Origin: Metaphire vulgaris
Lineage: Eukaryota; Annelida; Clitellata; Crassiclitellata; Megascolecidae
DNA: 64,000 nucleotides
Direction: 5' to 3'
Assembly: GCA_018105865.1 (NCBI GenBank)
Contig: CM030840.1
Span: 9,599,794 to 9,663,793 of the forward strand
The first letter of the stretch is position 1, and each line of letters begins with the position of its first letter. Shown one piece after another: positions 9,095-63,574 of the stretch. A model generated the notes under the pieces. The model had not been told where the DNA came from. It saw nothing but the letters and a program-made list of their open reading frames with translations, and ran no database searches. The position numbers and the translations under genes are program-made.

Positions 9095-9579
9095 CAGGGG
9101 TGCACAACCCGTGGCCTGCGGCGATTTTTTGTGGCCCGCGGACGTTTCCAGGATTTCAATGGAAAGTGGCCCCAAAGGCTTTAAAGTGGCCCCGAAGGTT
9201 TTCTTGCTGTCATATTAGAGCTACACTTTAAACCTAGTTATTATTATTATTTATTATTATGCCATTGCTGTTAAGAAATTCACAAATTTCTGCTATCAGT
9301 TCAACAAAGAATTCTAAAATTCGTTCTCTGCTCTCTCTCACATCTGTTAATATGGTATGTCATGGTAAGAGGCACCCGTCTCTTCTATAAATAACTTGAA
9401 TTGATGGCGACTTAGTCCCTTGGAACGAATGACTTCTTCTGCAGCGCTAATATGAAAGCAAGAAAGCCTTCGGGCCACTTTAAAGCCTTCGCAACTATTT
9501 GGAAGCACTTTTACTTGTGTGAACAAACATTTTCTGTAATGAAATTTAACAAAAATGTTCTAAGGTTCAGGATTGTTGT
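9095..9579 (+). mobile_element. hAT element remnant with transposase C-terminus
   Basis: It starts CAGGGGTGCACAACCCGTGG, a typical hAT terminus, and at 9470-9575 encodes ATIWKHFYLCEQTFSVMKFN and KNVLRFR, the conserved C-terminal dimerisation segment of hAT transposases. The rest of the transposase has been deleted. The element is cut at about 9580 by a LINE tail and a satellite; no right end was seen. Because coding is in plus orientation, the left end is the 5' end. Confidence 0.72.
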
Positions 9580-9581
9580 TG

Positions 9582-9636
<55 letters not shown>

Positions 9637-9656
9637 TAAGACAATTTCTATAGCGC
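9580..9656 (-). mobile_element. CR1-type 3' terminus with (AAT)n tail
   Basis: Minus orientation: GGCGCTATAGAAATTGTCTTAG (cut: revcomp of 9636-9657) followed by about 50 bp of AAT units (9585-9637). Only the last 20 bp of the LINE is present, next to a tandem satellite. Confidence 0.7.
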
Positions 9657-27516: not shown

Positions 27517-27825
27517 ACAACCATTTTATGACAACTAATGTGAAGAATTTAAGGCTTTCAACAGTAAACCTAAGTACAATGGGATATCGCATTAGCCATT
27601 TCAATGTTAATTTTATTTATAATCTATAAAATTTTGAAGAATTGAAATTTAATATGTGTGCTGTTTGGCATTGTATACTGTGATTTGTTTATTCTTTGTA
27701 GAATCAAGGATAACAGCTGTAGCAGAAAAACAGAAGTTGGAATAGAGGGCTGTATGAGCAATGGTGATTTTGCACACAAGAGAAAGCCTTCTAAATCATT
27801 TAAATTCCAGTTATTATTGTCATTA

Positions 27826-27827
<2 letters not shown>
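27517..27827. other. Intron DNA, unrecognised
   Basis: AT-rich, nothing supported. Confidence 0.5.

Positions 27828-27889
<62 letters not shown>
27828..27889. repeat. (TTA)n microsatellite
   Basis: About 20 uninterrupted units. Confidence 0.96.
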
Positions 27890-38104: not shown

Positions 38105-38116
38105 ATATAACAAAGC

Positions 38117-38272
38117 CCCCCGCCAAATCCAACCCACAGCCTCACCGTGGTGCGGGGGTGAACGGCCAAGTAGGGGATTGCCTGCTAGGGCTATACCACC
38201 AGTGGTGAAGGTGTTTAACACCAAAGTACCACCTTGGGCGTTACGTGAGGTGGGCAGGCCTAGCAGGAACCC
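38117..38272 (+). ncRNA. Structured 5' RNA of the RTE-like element
   Basis: Outer stem: GGATT (38175-38179) plus CCTGCTAGG (38181-38189) pair with CCTAGCAGG (38259-38267) plus AACCC (38268-38272), with G38180 bulged. Inside: hairpin A CACC-AGT-GGTG (38197-38207), hairpin B GGTGT-TTA-ACACC (38210-38222), hairpin C CCACCTT/GAGGTGG (38229-38235 with 38247-38253). All four stems are possible in the copy at 62460-62600 with compensatory or G-U changes. Upstream, CCCCCGC (38117-38123) pairs with GCGGGGG (38152-38158). Role unknown: ribozyme, internal initiation or packaging are options. Confidence 0.75.
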
Positions 38273-38288
38273 TGAAAATGGACAGCAA

Positions 38289-38456
38289 ATGTGGGAAATG
38301 GTAACCATGTCCTCCAAGATGGGGGTTGGGCATCGGGCCAGCAACCCGACACCGAAAAACACAAACAGCTACAGAAACGACGAGAAAATTTCAACCCGGA
38401 AACATCGGGCAGCGAAGCGAAGGTGTGACACCGGACCAGGATCACGTCAGCAATAG
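38289..38456 (+). CDS. Short ORF1-like frame of the RTE element
   Basis: 56 codons from ATG 38289 (MWEMVTMSSKMGVGHRASNP) to TAG at 38454-38456. It is basic in its second half (RKHRAAKRRCD). It overlaps the beginning of the ORF2 frame by about 130 nt in a different frame (ORF2 is +1 relative to it). Some RTE elements have a tiny overlapping ORF1 (known), but I have no homology to confirm that this one is translated. Confidence 0.4.
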   Translation: MWEMVTMSSKMGVGHRASNPTPKNTNSYRNDEKISTRKHRAAKRRCDTGPGSRQQ

Positions 38457-41400
38457 TCGAGAGACGTGCTCAGCAACAAGTGTCTCTTTGACGCGGCTGG
38501 GTGAAAGCCCTAGGGAAGCCCAGCAGCCGATAAACCAGATCTTCAATGCCAAAACAATCACAAGGATCGGCGCTTGGAACGTCCGTATGCTATATCAATG
38601 TGGAAGAATGGACCAAGTGCTGAAAATTGTATGTGATTACAACCTCAACATCTTAGGACTAAGTGAAACACGTTGGACAGGACAAGGTCGCTTCACCAAC
38701 AAAGGAATGACAATTCTGTACTCTGGCGGAGAGGAGCATCAGCGTGGAGTTGGCATCATCCTAAACAAAACCGCTGGCAGAGCATTGATAGCATGGAAGC
38801 CTGTGAGTGACCGCATAATCACAGCCAGATTCCAGACGAGACACACAAAAGCAACACTAATACAGGTCTATGCACCAACAGAGATGGCCAAAGAAGACGA
38901 AAAAGACAAGTTTTACGAGCTACTGCAGGAAGTGCTAGACAATGTACCAAGCTATGACATCAAATTTGTCATTGGCGACTACAATGCTAAGATTGGACAG
39001 AGATGGCATGGAACGGAACAGGTTATTGGGCCACACGGTTCTGCCACTGAAACAAATGACAATGGTGAAAGGCTGATCATGATGTGCAGCACAGTTGGAC
39101 TGTGTGTAGGAAACACATATTTCCAACATAAAAACATACACAAAACAACGTGGACATCTCCTGATGGCAAAACAACAAATGAGATTGACTACATCTGCAT
39201 TAGCGGTAGATGGAGGTCATCACTAATGGATGTGCGTGCATGTAGAGGAGCCGATGTAGGATCAGACCACAACCTATTGCTGGCAAAAATACGAATACGT
39301 CTGAAAAAGATGAAGTCACAAAAAGCCACTCGGCCTTTTGCGATACATAAACTAAAAGAAGATGCAGTTGCAGGGAACTTCTATATCGACATGAAGAACA
39401 GATTTGCCATATTACAAGACACAGAAGACATGGCGGAAAAATGGGAATCCTTCAAGGAAGCGGTGAAAAGCAGTGCAGAGGTAGTTATTGGTCGTAGGAG
39501 GGGTTCAAGAAAAGAGCAGTGGATTACAGATAGTTCGTGGAGCATTATAGATGAAAGGCAGAAGGTGAAAACTATAAGAGACTCTGCCAAAACCGAGGAA
39601 GAATGGCAACAGAAAAACACACTATATAGAAAGTTGGACAAAGATGTCAAAAAGAGCTGTAGAAAAGATAAAAGACAATGGTTAGACAAAAAAGGTGTGG
39701 AAGCAGAAGCAGCGGCTGCAAAAAATGACTCCAAAAGTCTGTTCAGAATTGTCAAAGAGCTAACGGGATCAAACAGCAATTCAAACATACCAATAAAGAG
39801 CAAAAATGGAGATATACTTACAACAGAAGAAGAACAGTCTGCACGATGGATTGAATACTTCAGTGAAATTCTGAACCAGCCAACACCCACAGAACTCTTT
39901 GATCTCACAACAGAGGGAGACCCACCTCAAATTGACATCTCTCTTGATAACATAGAAGAAGTGGAAGTGCAGAGGGCCATCCAAAGGTTAAAGAACAACA
40001 AAGCAGCCGGGATGGATGAGATTCCGGCTGAACTACTGAAACATGGAAAAGACCTCACAGCAATACAACTCACCCAGCTATGCAATCTCATTTGGAAAAC
40101 GGAGGACGTTCCGACGGAGTGGAGGCAGGGAGTCATTGTTCCATTACCAAAGAAAGGAACCCTGAGCGACTGCAACAACTGGCGTGGAGTGACACTGCTG
40201 TCAGTACCTGGCAAAGTATTCTGTAGTGTGCTGTTGCACAGACTAAAGAAAAGTATAGAACAGACACTTCGTGAGGAACAAGCTGGATTCCGCAGCGGAA
40301 GATCCTGCACAGAGCACATCCTAACACTAAGGAACATCATTGAACAATGCCAGAACTGGAAGAAGCTTCTGTTTATCAATTACATAGACTTCAAGAAGGC
40401 TTTTGATAGCATACATCGAGATACGCTATGGAAAATACTAAAGATTTATGGCATCCCAGATAAATATACCAGAATATTCCAGGCATTATACAGAAACTCT
40501 ACATGCTGCATAAGAACAAGAAATGGTCACACAAAGATGTTTGACATTCTGACTGGCGTGAGGCAAGGATGCATCCTTTCACCTTTCCTGTTTCTTATTG
40601 TTATGGACTTCATCATGAAGAAGTCGATAGATGGTCCAAACTTTGGCTTAAAATGGGGCCAACACAGGCTGGCAGACCTGGACTTTGCCGATGACATTAC
40701 CTTGATAAGTGAAAGACAGGATATCCTACAAGAAATGACAGATGCGCTTTATGAAAACGGAGCAAAAGTTGGGCTAAAAATCAGCTGTGAAAAAACGAAA
40801 GAGATGGTAGTGCATGGAGACTCACAAGTAACACCACTCACTGTTGATGGAAACCAAATTGAACGCATCAAGACGTTCATATATCTTGGCAGCAATCTTT
40901 CCAACAATGGCGATGTTGACCCTGATGTAAATGTAAGAATTGGGAAGGCGTCAGCAGTATTTCGACGTCTCAACAAAATATGGAGGTGCAGCTCTATCAA
41001 CAAGAGTACCAAGCTGCGTCTATACTCTGCTATCATAATAACGACTGCTCTGTATGCAAGTGAAACGTGGAAGAGGACGAAGAAAACTCAACAGAGATTA
41101 GACGTTTTTCACCGACGATGTCTCCGTCAGATCTTAGGAGTGACATGGAAAGATCACATGCCCAATGAGGAAGTGATGCAACTAACTGGCATGGACTCGC
41201 TACATTGTATAGTAGACGAGCGCAGACGCAGATACATCGGGCACATCTTACGAATGCCACCGTCAAGACCCGCAGCCCAAGCAATGAGCTGGAGACCAGA
41301 GAATGGGAGAAGAGGCAGAGGAAGACCAAGGATAACATGGCAAGACACTTTTGCTGAAGACATGAAAGATATGGGGCTAGAGATAAACAAAGCAAGAGAG

Positions 41401-41478
41401 TTGCCAATGATCGTACAGGTTGGAGAAGACTCGTCGCCCAATGTTCCAGAGGGAACAGGAGGAACTAAGTCTAAGTAA
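38326..41478 (+). CDS. RTE-like ORF2: AP-endonuclease and reverse transcriptase
   Basis: About 1050 codons open. Numbered from 38326, endonuclease motifs are WNVR (N85), LGLSETRW (E114), VYAPTE, GDYNAKIG (D218, N220) and SDHNLL (D314, H315). RT follows: NNKAAGMDEIPAELLK, DFKKAFDSIHRD, GVRQGCILSP, and the active site FADD (787-790). The C-terminal part has ETWKRTKKT, DVFHRRCLRQILG, YIGHILRMP, GRRGRGRPRITW. 38326 is a TTG; the first in-frame ATG is at 38587, inside the endonuclease motif, so the true start is uncertain. The stop TAA lies in the (TAAG) tail. It catalyses target-site nicking and target-primed reverse transcription (family knowledge). Confidence 0.93.
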   Translation: MGIGPATRHRKTQTATETTRKFQPGNIGQRSEGVTPDQDHVSNSRETCSATSVSLTRLGESPREAQQPINQIFNAKTITRIGAWNVRMLYQCGRMDQVLKIVCDYNLNILGLSETRWTGQGRFTNKGMTILYSGGEEHQRGVGIILNKTAGRALIAWKPVSDRIITARFQTRHTKATLIQVYAPTEMAKEDEKDKFYELLQEVLDNVPSYDIKFVIGDYNAKIGQRWHGTEQVIGPHGSATETNDNGERLIMMCSTVGLCVGNTYFQHKNIHKTTWTSPDGKTTNEIDYICISGRWRSSLMDVRACRGADVGSDHNLLLAKIRIRLKKMKSQKATRPFAIHKLKEDAVAGNFYIDMKNRFAILQDTEDMAEKWESFKEAVKSSAEVVIGRRRGSRKEQWITDSSWSIIDERQKVKTIRDSAKTEEEWQQKNTLYRKLDKDVKKSCRKDKRQWLDKKGVEAEAAAAKNDSKSLFRIVKELTGSNSNSNIPIKSKNGDILTTEEEQSARWIEYFSEILNQPTPTELFDLTTEGDPPQIDISLDNIEEVEVQRAIQRLKNNKAAGMDEIPAELLKHGKDLTAIQLTQLCNLIWKTEDVPTEWRQGVIVPLPKKGTLSDCNNWRGVTLLSVPGKVFCSVLLHRLKKSIEQTLREEQAGFRSGRSCTEHILTLRNIIEQCQNWKKLLFINYIDFKKAFDSIHRDTLWKILKIYGIPDKYTRIFQALYRNSTCCIRTRNGHTKMFDILTGVRQGCILSPFLFLIVMDFIMKKSIDGPNFGLKWGQHRLADLDFADDITLISERQDILQEMTDALYENGAKVGLKISCEKTKEMVVHGDSQVTPLTVDGNQIERIKTFIYLGSNLSNNGDVDPDVNVRIGKASAVFRRLNKIWRCSSINKSTKLRLYSAIIITTALYASETWKRTKKTQQRLDVFHRRCLRQILGVTWKDHMPNEEVMQLTGMDSLHCIVDERRRRYIGHILRMPPSRPAAQAMSWRPENGRRGRGRPRITWQDTFAEDMKDMGLEINKARELPMIVQVGEDSSPNVPEGTGGTKSK

Positions 41479-41493
41479 GTAATATAACAAAGC

Positions 41494-58077: not shown

Positions 58078-59053
58078 TGATCAGTTTATCAGGTCAGGTC
58101 AGGTCTTCGTCCCCCAGCTGTGTTCAGCTATTGACTTCTTCATGACATCTCTCCAAAGTTCTCTGTTCTTTGCTATTTCTTCCAAAGTCGTTTGGTGTTT
58201 TTTCGTCAGTTTTTTCATTGAGATTCAACCCTGCCATGTGGCATGTGCAGATCCTCTTCCAATCCGTCCACCCATCGCCTTTTTGGTCTTCCTTTAGATC
58301 TTCTCTCCTCTGGTTTGTAGTTGAAAATTCGTTTTGGGTTTCTTATTTCTTCCATTCTGAGTACCGGTATGTGTCCAGTCCATTTCATTCTTCTCTTTCT
58401 GATGACTTCCATGATGCTCGATTGCAGTGTTCTCTCTCTAACTTCTTCACTTGTTATATGTTTTTTGTATCCAATCCTTAGTATTCTTCTGAGCCCGTTA
58501 TTTTCTGCTGCTATTATTTTTTTCTCCAGTTCTTTTTTATGGTCCAAGATTCACGCCCATAAATTAGTATTGGTATTACACAAGTGTTGAGAATTCTTAG
58601 TTTTGTTTTCATCCCAGTTATTATTATTATTATTATTATTTATTGACAATTTATATAGCGCAGTAGACAAGGCTAAGGCCTACAACAAGAGCGCTTAACA
58701 CAGTTCGTATCCAATATTAAATAAATGTGTCTTCAAATTTCTAATGAAAAGTCCAGCCGAGTTTGCTCCAGTCACATTGTCTGGAAGAGAGCTCCACAGG
58801 GCAGGATTCCCCGCGCGAATGATCTTTCCCCAAACTTAGGGGTCTTGAACGGAATGGACGGGGGAGGGACCAACAACTGCACTCTCCGACTGGACCTGAG
58901 AACCGATCTCCTCTCGATCACAGTCGATCTTCGTACAAGCACAGTTAGATAATCGGGACAAAGTGGATCGTGTAAAGCCCAATACGTAAGCCAACAGCGC
59001 TTGTAGATAATGTGCTGTGGAACATGGAGCCAGTGGAGTCGATCTCTAAGGAG

Positions 59054-59098
<45 letters not shown>

Positions 59099-59556
59099 AA
59101 TGTCAATTTGTATAGCGCTATGTGCCTGGTGAAGGCCATAGTCAAGAGCACTTTAAAGAAGCCTCTGATATGAAATGCTAAAAAGATGCGTCTTGAGTTT
59201 CATTGCAAATTTGTCATGAGTGGTCTCGCTAGTTATTACCTCGGGGAGGGAGAGTTCCAAAGTCTAGAGATCCCCCTCGAGACAGATCTATCCCCAAATT
59301 TGGCTGTCTTAGACTGGGGAGGGACAACAAGCTGGACTCGGCGACTTGCTCGTAGCTGCGAGCGTCTGTCAGATAGGGAGGGTCGGTGCACCAGTCTCGA
59401 TAAATCCCAATGTCATGTCTTTTAAAAATTTTGGTATTTAGCCTGTTGAAGGTTGATCCTGCCACTGCTATTCTTCGTTTAATCTCCAAGTACGAGCCTC
59501 CTTTTGCTTCCAATTCACTTCCCAAGTAAACGAAATTCTTCACTATTTCAATTTCT
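58078..59556 (-). mobile_element. RTE-like C-terminal copy, split by two CR1 ends
   Basis: Minus strand 59556-59405: KEIEIVKNFVYLGSELEAKG and IKRRIAVAGSTFNRLN, KIFKRHD; then 58617-58078: MKTKLRILNTCVIPILIYG, GLRRILRIGYKKHITSEEV, MKWTGH, IFNYKPEERRSKGRPKRRWV, LEEIAKNRELWRDV. An (ACCTG)-like tail at 58090-58105. The interruption at 58618-59404 is flanked by ATCCCA on both sides (58612-58617 and 59405-59410). Confidence 0.8.
58618..59404 (-). mobile_element. Two stacked CR1-like 3' ends
   Basis: Two minus-orientation CR1 3' ends, 58622-59055 and 59056-59404, each with a GCGCTATA-type terminus (58661 and 59113) and an (AAT)n tail (58619-58640 and 59057-59096). The coding remnants read GERSFARGNPALWSSL-like and GDRSVSRGISRLWNSP-like on the minus strand. 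The second is inserted at or into the 5' edge of the first. Confidence 0.75.
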
Positions 59557-61667: not shown

Positions 61668-62434
61668 CTAGAAAAACAGCACATTTAGAGAATAGTTAAC
61701 AGTTTAGAAAAGTCAGTTTGTTTCAAGGCCATTACTGTCGCAAAACCTATTTTTATGTTTCTATAATTACATTCTAACATACATAGAAGACCTCAATTTG
61801 TAAATCAGAATAAATAATAATTACTGGATTTTAATGGACTTAGTAGGATCCCTCCTGTACTAAAACCACTGTAACTCATATAGCTCTCTATTTCAGCTTC
61901 AGTTTGTTTTGATCACAAAAGAAAACAAACAGTTTGCAGTATACAGTACAATGCCAAAGCAGCTCATACACCGGTATTCATTTTCAATTCTTTATAATTT
62001 TGCAATATAGTAACTGTGTATAACTCACAGTTGAACTCTGATATCACTCAAATTTCTGTGGCTGAAGCTCTACCCCAGGCCCCATGGGGGATTACGATGC
62101 TTTCCCCATCTGTGCCTGACCCTGTGATGGTGCCCCATATTGTGGAACCCTGGTCGAACTTCATAGTTCAAATTATATTACAATAACAAAACTATGTACA
62201 ATAGAAGCCGATATTAAATATTGTTTTATCCTTTTCTGTAATTATTGCACGTAATCACAATAAAAGCACTTCATACTTGAAGATTTAATACTTACCGGTA
62301 TACAACTGCATGTGCAATAAGAATTTTGCAACTATGGCCCCTGAAAAGAAATGCTGCAGAATTTGGCCATTCATGAGAAAAGTTTGTGGACTGCTGACAT
62401 AAACCCAGTCAAATGGTGTATGTACCTCATTCCT
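61668..62434. other. Intron DNA, unrecognised
   Basis: No gene or repeat supported. Confidence 0.55.
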
Positions 62435-62600
62435 ATAAATCCTACATATGGCCTTTTCGCGCGGAGGAGATAAACATCCAAGTAGGGGATTGCTCGTCAG
62501 GGATATACCATTAGTGATGAAGGCTTCGGCCGAAGAATTACTTTGGGTGCTATGCGAGGTGGGCAGGCCTGACGAGAATCCTGACATGATGGCTAACGCA
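62435..62600 (+). mobile_element. Isolated 5' end of the RTE-like element
   Basis: Homologous to 38124-38285: AAATCC at 62436, CCAAGTAGGGGATTG (identical in both), outer stem GGATT+CTCGTCAGG (62487-62501) with CCTGACGAG+AATCC (62568-62581), hairpins CATT/GATG, GGC-TTCG-GCC and TTACTTT/GAGGTGG, GAGGTGGGCAGGCCT. Homology stops near 62590, just before an (ATT)n LINE tail. A LINE 5' end without its 3' end is unusual. Confidence 0.75.
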
Positions 62601-62604
62601 GGCG

Positions 62605-62642
<38 letters not shown>

Positions 62643-63515
62643 GAACATTTCTATAGCGCAAATTATCGCAAAGCAGCAAATGCACTCATGTCAGTTGCGA
62701 ACCAGATCAATCAAACAAGAATGTCTTCAGTTGTTTCCTAAAAGATAACAGCGTCATGGTTGAGTCAGAGGAACGCAATGTTGCTGGCAGACTGTTCCAA
62801 ACAACCGGGCCAGCAACGGCCAGGTTGCAGTCACCAAAGCCTGTCCGAGTTCGAGGCACTGCAAGTGTGCTGGTCAAGGCGGAGCGCAGATGCGACCGAC
62901 CAGGCAACTTAGCCGTCGAGCAGAACATATCAGTTAGATATGACGGAGCAGAGCTGTGTTGGGCCTTGAACAGGATGGTCCCGAGTTTAAAAGTCACACG
63001 TTGATCGACCGGGAGCCAGTGGAGCTCCCGTAGTACTGGTGTGATATGATCGAACTTCCCTCTCTGGAACACCAAGCGTGCAGCTGCATTCTGGACGAGT
63101 TGAAGTTTCTGTATCAGATGGTCACTGATGCCATAAAGGATGCTGTTGCAGTAGTCGAGTCTGCTGCTGATGAATGCTTGAGCCAGCATCCTAGTTGCGT
63201 CAGGTGTCAGCGAGTTCCTCATTGCCCGCAGCTGGCGAAGCTGGAAGAACGACTTCCTGCAAACTGATGCAACGTGGTTGGCCATTGTCAGTTGACTATC
63301 AATTAACACTCCGAGGTTATTGACCACTGTAGCACATTCGATGGTGGCGTCAGGACGGCGTAAGGCATTTATTGTAATCTTTTGAATCTGTTGTCTTGTG
63401 CCCAGCCAGATAATTTGTGTCTTATCTTCATTCAGCTTTAGGCAGTTCTCCGCCATCCAGCCCCGGATTCTAGTGATACAGTCACTTAACTGGTCCATTA
63501 ATGCTTGCTCTCCAC
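62605..63515 (-). mobile_element. L2-like LINE, RT thumb to 3' end
   Basis: Minus-strand copy with 263 open codons (63498-62707), then the 3' end TGCGCTATAGAAATG and an (AAT)n tail at 62607-62640. 5' truncated at about 63515. Confidence 0.88.
62707..63498 (-). CDS. L2-like ORF2 C-terminal fragment, open frame
   Basis: Encodes CLKLNEDKTQIIWLGTRQQ, VNNLGVLIDSQLTMANH, FISSRLDYCNSILYGI, LQLVQNAAARLVFQRG, PVLRELHWLPVDQRV, AVAGPVVWNSLPATLR and FRKQLKTFLFD, the RT thumb and C-terminal part of an L2-type LINE. The YADD palm and endonuclease are absent, so this is not a functional gene although uninterrupted. The start is simply the first in-frame Met. Confidence 0.85.
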   Translation of the reverse strand: MDQLSDCITRIRGWMAENCLKLNEDKTQIIWLGTRQQIQKITINALRRPDATIECATVVNNLGVLIDSQLTMANHVASVCRKSFFQLRQLRAMRNSLTPDATRMLAQAFISSRLDYCNSILYGISDHLIQKLQLVQNAAARLVFQRGKFDHITPVLRELHWLPVDQRVTFKLGTILFKAQHSSAPSYLTDMFCSTAKLPGRSHLRSALTSTLAVPRTRTGFGDCNLAVAGPVVWNSLPATLRSSDSTMTLLSFRKQLKTFLFD

Positions 63516-63574
63516 TCGCATTCCCGCTTACTCACTGGGCAGCAGCAGTGAGGGTAGAGAAGGTGGCGCAGTAT

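Follow-up and report, generated by a model that had tools for sequence, protein, structure and literature searches.

The four-stem RNA reported at 38175–38272 of the 64,000-nucleotide stretch analyzed here (the window) very probably represents, judged from sequence comparison, the P4 arm of a large, self-cleaving HDV-like ribozyme occupying the initial 185 nt of a LINE. The first-pass annotation had noted that two copies (38175–38272 and 62487–62581) fold alike and had proposed that, at the 5′ end of an RTE-like LINE, RNA structure is under selection. The sequences of both copies are as described, and the selection proposal is supported by many genomic copies, so the observation is confirmed in part; the annotated limits truncate the module, whose extent is 38117 to about 38301.

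The LINE itself (copy 1, 38117–41481) is bounded by a 12-nt target-site duplication, ATATAACAAAGC, with the 5′ repeat at 38105–38116 and its exact 3′ counterpart, preceded by a CTAAGTAAGTA-type tail, at 41482–41493 (forward strand, as are all features of copy 1). Because ATATAACAAAGC flanks the LINE on both sides, the element is taken to start at 38117, 58 bases upstream of the feature as first annotated. An RTE-type ORF (38326–41478) encodes an APE-type endonuclease (residues 83–315, PF03372) and a reverse transcriptase (RT; residues 608–847, PF00078) within a single frame, the arrangement by which RTE elements are recognized, and its listed homologues include proteins from Branchiostoma, nematodes, and a tunicate. 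One relative is annotated as craniofacial development protein 2-like, a name that we take to mark RTE-derived proteins; the assignment of copy 1 to the RTE clade is presumed from such homologue names. The long ORF has no ATG upstream of the endonuclease domain, and the frame of an ATG at 38298 closes ahead of that domain. Within 38298–38480, the frame from this ATG encodes ...ASNP... and the long ORF frame encodes ...ATETT...; some homologues, P0002 and P0003 among them, have the ASNP and ATETT motifs in one frame.

The HDV-like double pseudoknot of copy 1 is laid out in the order P1, J1/2, P2, A, P3, L3, P3′, P1′, a long insert, J4/2, and P2′, which is that of the HDV ribozyme: P1, P2, and P3 stand in nested pseudoknot order, P4 lies between P1′ and J4/2, and J4/2, with a catalytic-type C, lies immediately ahead of P2′. 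The 5′ strand of P1 (CCCCCGC, 38117–38123) pairs with GCGGGGG (38152–38158), and both sides are changed in other sequence families of the module (five families, I–V, described below). The 5′ strand of P2 (38129–38137), made up of a distal CCA (38129–38131), an A, and a proximal CCCAC (38133–38137), pairs with a 3′ strand (38291–38301) that reads GTGGG-AAA-TGG (GTGGG, 38291–38295; TGG, 38299–38301) and at which the shared module ends; distal P2 varies with pairing kept, and proximal P2 is changed on both sides in families III–V. P3 (GCC/GGU, 38139–38151) encloses the L3 loop UCACCGU (38142–38148), and its first pair changes from G-C to A-U between families. The base of P4 pairs CGGCC (38163–38167) with 38280–38284, which is GGACA in copy 1 and GGACG in most sister copies, and is followed by J4/2 (GCAAAT, 38285–38290), with the catalytic-type C at 38286. 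A possible P1.1 between CA of L3 and UG after P1′, read by eye in families I and II, is invariant. Since the four stems of the first-pass annotation lie inside the long insert, between P1′ and J4/2, they correspond to the P4 arm of the ribozyme. The predicted cleavage site lies directly before 38117, the first base of P1, and coincides with the 5′ end of the element.

How often such a core arises by chance was gauged with an anchored HDV descriptor, written after copy 1 had been seen and applied to 40,000 shuffles of the first 260 nt from 38117. The stricter form (P1 of at least 7, P2 of at least 6, P3, and J4/2) was matched by 9 shuffles, none of them with the L3 signature, and a looser form (P1 of at least 6, P2 of at least 5) by 100, one of them with the signature. 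On both strands of the window the stricter descriptor finds 172 positions, among which 38117 alone has the L3 signature.

The host genome (728 Mb, 246 contigs; search counts are lower bounds) contains 40 exact places of the conserved flank CCAAGTAGGGGATTG and none of its reversal; most copies were gathered via one exact 15-mer. A J4/2–P2′ pattern, which fixed part of the letters and permitted C or T at the catalytic place, matched 31 of the 40 copies. In these, J4/2 reads GCTAAC (19 copies), GCAAAT (7), GCAAGT (2), GCCAAT (1), GCAAAC (1), or GTAAAT (1), and the catalytic-type position is C in 30 and T in one, L220 (G000:C9:13566785, GTAAAT), a natural candidate for an inactive variant. J4/2 plus P2′ is absent from the other nine copies, including L218 and L231 (both in G000), whose 5′ ends lie exactly at P1 and in which a deletion within P4, which may date from or after insertion, has removed J4/2 and P2′. 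Families I and II differ on both sides at P1 position 6 (G-C/T-A), P3 position 1 (G-C/A-T), and distal P2 position 3 (A-T/G-C), and L222 carries T-A instead of C-G at distal P2 position 2. When copy 2, the second copy in the window, served as query in a DNA search, at least 40 places were returned, at least 5 of them in the CCAAGTAGGGGATTG set, and 30 became loci; among these appeared families III to V, in which P1, P2, and the P4 base differ in sequence and are again paired. P2 is CCCAC/GTGGG, CTGTG/CACAG, CTTGC/GCAAG, or CTCAC/GTGAG across families, and the P4 base is CGACC/GGTCG in family II, CATC/GATG in family III, and CAGTC/GACTG in family IV, being imperfect in family I (a G.A mismatch) and family V (three of five pairs). 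Family IV comprises two loci and family V one, L269 (G000:C3:5741099), whose module has a partial tandem duplication around ACAAGTAGG.GATTG.

These families bear on where the ribozyme ends. A smaller HDV-like ribozyme could be drawn that ends at CCAAGTAGG, with CCAA as J4/2 and AATCC/GGATT or CCnAC/GTAGG as P2, leaving the four-stem RNA as a separate downstream domain with a role, for example, in translation. The Rfam alignment on copy 1, which puts J4/2 on GCCAAG, and the identity of AATCC/GGATT in both window copies agree with this division; its P2, however, is invariant between the two copies and does not adjoin P3, whereas the P2 made downstream of the arm varies on both sides across families I–V, has GCNAA just before it, and in family II is accompanied by CGACC/GGTCG pairing across the arm. 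An ending at CCAAGTAGG was rejected once the post-arm P2 was seen to change on both sides, and we regard it as very improbable.

For the large ribozyme with its P4 arm, cleavage at the first base of P1 is indicated indirectly by the 5′ ends of the elements, as marked by flanking exact repeats. Exact repeats of at least 10 nt end at this base (offset 0 or −1) in 12 of the 40 copies, a raw count that includes L228, which sits in repetitive flank; the 12-nt repeats of L227 and L242 extend two bases into P1, and a C run in family II blurs the 5′ boundary by one base. The pairing, its covariation over five families, the J4/2 cytosine, and the start of P1 at the element 5′ end are observed in the copies themselves, and from the ribozymes of R2, RTE, and L1Tc we infer that self-cleavage probably frees the RNA of each element at its exact first base; cleavage, for which the first-pass annotation had suggested a test, is the leading candidate for the function of the module. 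The LINE would be transcribed within a longer host RNA and the ribozyme would fold during transcription, upon which the J4/2 cytosine would help to break the chain directly before 38117, leaving a full-length LINE RNA with a 5′ hydroxyl, ready for translation and copying. The most likely role of the P4 arm is to keep the core in the active conformation, and one might guess that the arm also aids ribosome entry or protein binding. A module that folds as found without cleaving, and is retained for internal ribosome entry or for binding of the LINE protein, would fit the overlap of the ATG at 38298 with the distal P2 strand and the other roles of structured 5′ regions indicated for L1Tc (PMC4035085) and R2 (PMC11331408). 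Against it stand the catalytic-type C kept in 30 of the 31 parsed copies and the flanking repeats that put the 5′ end at the predicted cut, and there is very little chance that it is correct.

The first-pass annotation had suggested collecting genomic copies with the conserved flank, and the copies parsed here covary. Over 37 parsed copies of the five families (the 31 pattern-matched copies less L217, L234, L244, and L247, with 10 of the 27 family III–V loci), 677 of 740 core cells are paired and 15 of 20 pairs are changed on both sides; P1, P2, P3, and the P4 base all have both-side changes with pairing kept over the five families. The parsers looked for J4/2 and P2′ patterns and chose whichever P1 paired best, and families IV and V were read by hand, so that pairing rates are biased upward; P1 of L226 and L227 was also re-set by hand. 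P4 counts, on the other hand, are understated, since the P4 base of family III is one base out of register in the 37-copy count. With five representatives, one per family, 93 of 100 cells are paired, compared with a mean of 77 after swaps of the 3′ strands, and none of 2000 swaps scores as high. Family III cores reach a score of at least 17 in 6 of 27 loci (11 of the 27 family III–V loci were not parsed), and with shuffled upstream parts of the 16 parsed family III–V loci this score is reached in 0 of 320 trials. When the comparison is confined to families I and II, doubly changed pairs are no more numerous than in shuffles (4 versus 3.1; 170 of 500 shuffles reach 4), but the number of cells changed on both sides (31 versus 12.7) and the covariation score each exceed all 500 shuffles.

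When all helices shared by the two window copies are ranked, the outer stem of the arm comes first (nine pairs, four double changes) and 38118–38122/38153–38157, which is ribozyme P1 and had gone unmentioned, comes second. Under a random-substitution null the outer stem has P = 0.0007 (0.004 with stronger transition bias) and every other helix alone 0.05 or more; all named helices together have nine pairs changed on both sides, as against 4.5 in shuffles. A null that keeps base identity, which gave 0.33 for the outer stem, was dismissed as uninformative. The folding energies of the two copies lie at z = −2.6 and −3.6 relative to dinucleotide shuffles. The initial number of two copies and the weak single-helix nulls apart from the outer stem might be cited in favor of pairing by chance or by a recent inverted duplication. 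Both are refuted, to the point of being negligible, by the many covarying genomic copies, the both-side changes in all core helices, and the shuffle and strand-swap controls; neither the inverted duplication nor the lack of covariation named in the first-pass annotation as counting against its claim was borne out.

The P4 arm, with the fold derived from 24 copies, extends over 38171–38274 and holds all four stems. Its alignments were built from 23 (A5) and 24 (A4) of the 40 copies, and a covariance model (R1) that had both window copies as training rows found no third place in the window. In the outer stem (38181–38192 with 38257–38267), CCTGCTAGG/CCTAGCAGG in one copy is replaced by CTCGTCAGG/CCTGACGAG in the other, the four pairs that differ in copy 2 being exchanged on both sides as originally stated; the bulged G, the identical flank CCAAGTAGGGGATTG, and hairpin B with its C(UUCG)G version also stand as first read from the sequence. 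Hairpin B (GGTGT/ACACC, 38210–38222) has three pairs changed on both sides, and in two of them the change separates family I from family II. Hairpin C does have the C-G to U-G changes described, but hairpins A and C as paired in the first-pass annotation are less well supported than the RNAalifold solution for 24 copies, which retains the outer stem and hairpin B and joins the strands of the other two hairpins crosswise (5′ of A to 3′ of C, 3′ of A to 5′ of C). CCACC (38196–38200) is better paired with GGTGG (38249–38253) than inside hairpin A, and GTGGT (38202–38206) is better paired with ACCAC (38228–38232); the occurrence of U-A, G-U, G-C, or A-U at 38203/38231 across copies is explained by the re-paired fold. 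Compared with the original fold, the re-paired one has 96.5% versus 91.8% of cells paired and nine versus seven doubly changed pairs, and is energetically favored in 22 of 24 copies, the exceptions being copy 2 and L226, which favor the original version. The strands of hairpins A and C are thus probably better explained as pairing with each other. Family II incurs the same large energy penalty in both folds, which we attribute to hairpin B having a loop of two bases. Of 23 distinct rows, 22, including copy 1, carry an A.C mismatch in the proposed GGATT/AAYCC extension of the outer stem, which gives way to a TAGGG/CCCTG extension. Hammerhead and twister readings of the four stems were considered by eye and discarded; neither has an Rfam hit.

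Copy 2 (62429–62605, forward strand) is a divergent family III module whose relatives (e.g. L249–L252, L255, and L257) are 81%–85% identical and have paired cores. Copy 2 itself has a P4 base (CATC, 62475–62478; GATG, 62588–62591) and J4/2 (GCTAAC, 62592–62597), but only a remnant of P1 (TTCCT, 62430–62434; AGGAG, 62465–62469), and its own P2 is not formed; it is apparently a decayed as well as divergent member of the family. The view of copy 2 as a 5′-truncated copy was rejected on two grounds: the homology of its upstream part with copy 1 (26 of 49, a value reached at 3 of 127,904 window positions, two of which are copies 1 and 2) and the paired cores of its relatives. It is interrupted by a later LINE insertion on the reverse strand with a (TAA)n tail (62606–63526) and appears to resume at about 63527, with 63527–63554 resembling, by eye, the downstream part of family III copies. 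Many (TTA)n/(TAA)n tracts occur in the window, e.g. at 1740–1823, 9572–9656, 27810–27889, and 59049–59118; those at 9603–9656 and 59061–59118 are followed by sequence resembling the tail of this reverse-strand LINE.

Among Rfam families, the top match at the P1 start is HDV-F-prausnitzii (RF02682), both for family I (16.0 bits; E = 1.1 and 0.27) and for family II (16.8 bits; E = 0.47), in each case far below the gathering score of 44 bits; the core of copy 2 has no Rfam hit, and the P4 arm matches no Rfam family above threshold. The likeness to RF02682 lies in the P1/P3/L3 layout, and family II (e.g. L225) shares GGCAACG after P1′; the F. prausnitzii model, in contrast, has a small P4. HDV-like ribozymes of RTE and R4 LINEs have reportedly been described in Webb 2009 and Ruminski 2011, either of which may already contain a P4 of this kind. 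Another account (PMC3774820) places HDV-like ribozymes in several LINE clades including RTE, with cleavage at the element 5′ junction; the RTE/R4 ribozymes share with ours the position at the LINE 5′ end, the cut at the first base, and the nested double pseudoknot, and are set apart, by their descriptions, from the P4 of about 120 nt with a junction and the five families in one genome found here. The R2 ribozyme has the same core, with a P1 of 6–7 bp, a variable P2, a catalytic C, and a P4 that varies widely from too short to extensively paired (PMC3774820), whereas in the present module the sequence and structure of P4 are similar between families and no rDNA site specificity is seen. The large HDV-like ribozyme of Anopheles Agam-2 likewise adds a peripheral domain to an HDV core, but the domain studied there lies in J1/2 rather than P4 (PMC4908430). 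The Pr77 ribozyme of trypanosomatid L1Tc/ingi elements is an HDV-like head of LINEs that is common to short elements (PMC4035085), the comparison being one of position and sharing, not of sequence relation. Truncated twister ribozymes in RTE elements are mentioned as work in preparation (PMC7761336).

The statement in the first-pass annotation that no structure of this layout is described in RTE elements therefore has to be divided: HDV-like ribozymes are already known at the 5′ ends of RTE and R2 LINEs, but this P4 architecture is apparently new, as is its sharing by LINEs with divergent RTs. It adds a large, well-supported P4 to the HDV-like ribozymes, with natural variants for testing peripheral domains. 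Among the best-ranked papers, few of them from subscription journals, no title or abstract concerned a ribozyme head common to divergent LINEs, which is weak evidence. Candidate loci were only short or weak matches both in public viral contigs, where no relatives of the module were among the matches listed, and in public genome contigs, where none were found.

The RTs of module-bearing elements fall into about five groups by our own grouping. For ten representative copies, RT is 26%–47% identical between groups (amino acids) and the P4 domain 83%–97% (nucleotides); in a wider set, RT identity between groups is 26%–54% (its highest value from a comparison of only 67 residues) and identity over the entire module 79%–95%. 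L225 and L227, for example, have 40% identical RTs and 97% identical P4 domains, and copy 1 and L225 have values of 35% and 87%. Under the same gapped measure, shuffling P4 yields 71% on average and 83% at most, a maximum that equals the bottom of the between-group range. The 200 nt downstream of the module are 64%–77% identical between groups, compared with a shuffled mean of 72% and maximum of 78%; being at the shuffled level, they indicate that the similarity ends near the ribozyme 3′ end. Over pairs, which are non-independent, RT and P4 identity are correlated (Spearman 0.48), implying that some shared descent is present, and this correlation together with the shuffled maximum of 83% calls for caution about module exchange.

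Two explanations offer themselves: LINEs have exchanged the head, or unusually strong constraint acts on its sequence. We give slightly less than an even chance to a transferable 5′ cassette, whereby divergent LINEs (RT 26%–47%, unlike tails) would have swapped or captured the same head of about 185 nt, with P4 as the common recognition element. The swap would probably proceed via template switching in reverse transcription, and a defined 5′ end would be gained in one step. If this is true, module exchange would be a mechanism by which LINEs acquire unlike 5′ ends, and the contrast between P4 and RT identity makes the exchange of 5′ ends as modules a testable question. One locus, L235 (G000:C23:14660805), has flanking repeats about 430 nt apart, an intact ribozyme head, a (ACCAT)n-like tail, and no RTE protein match; it looks like a non-autonomous relative and, with little else beyond the head, hints at use of the head by such elements.
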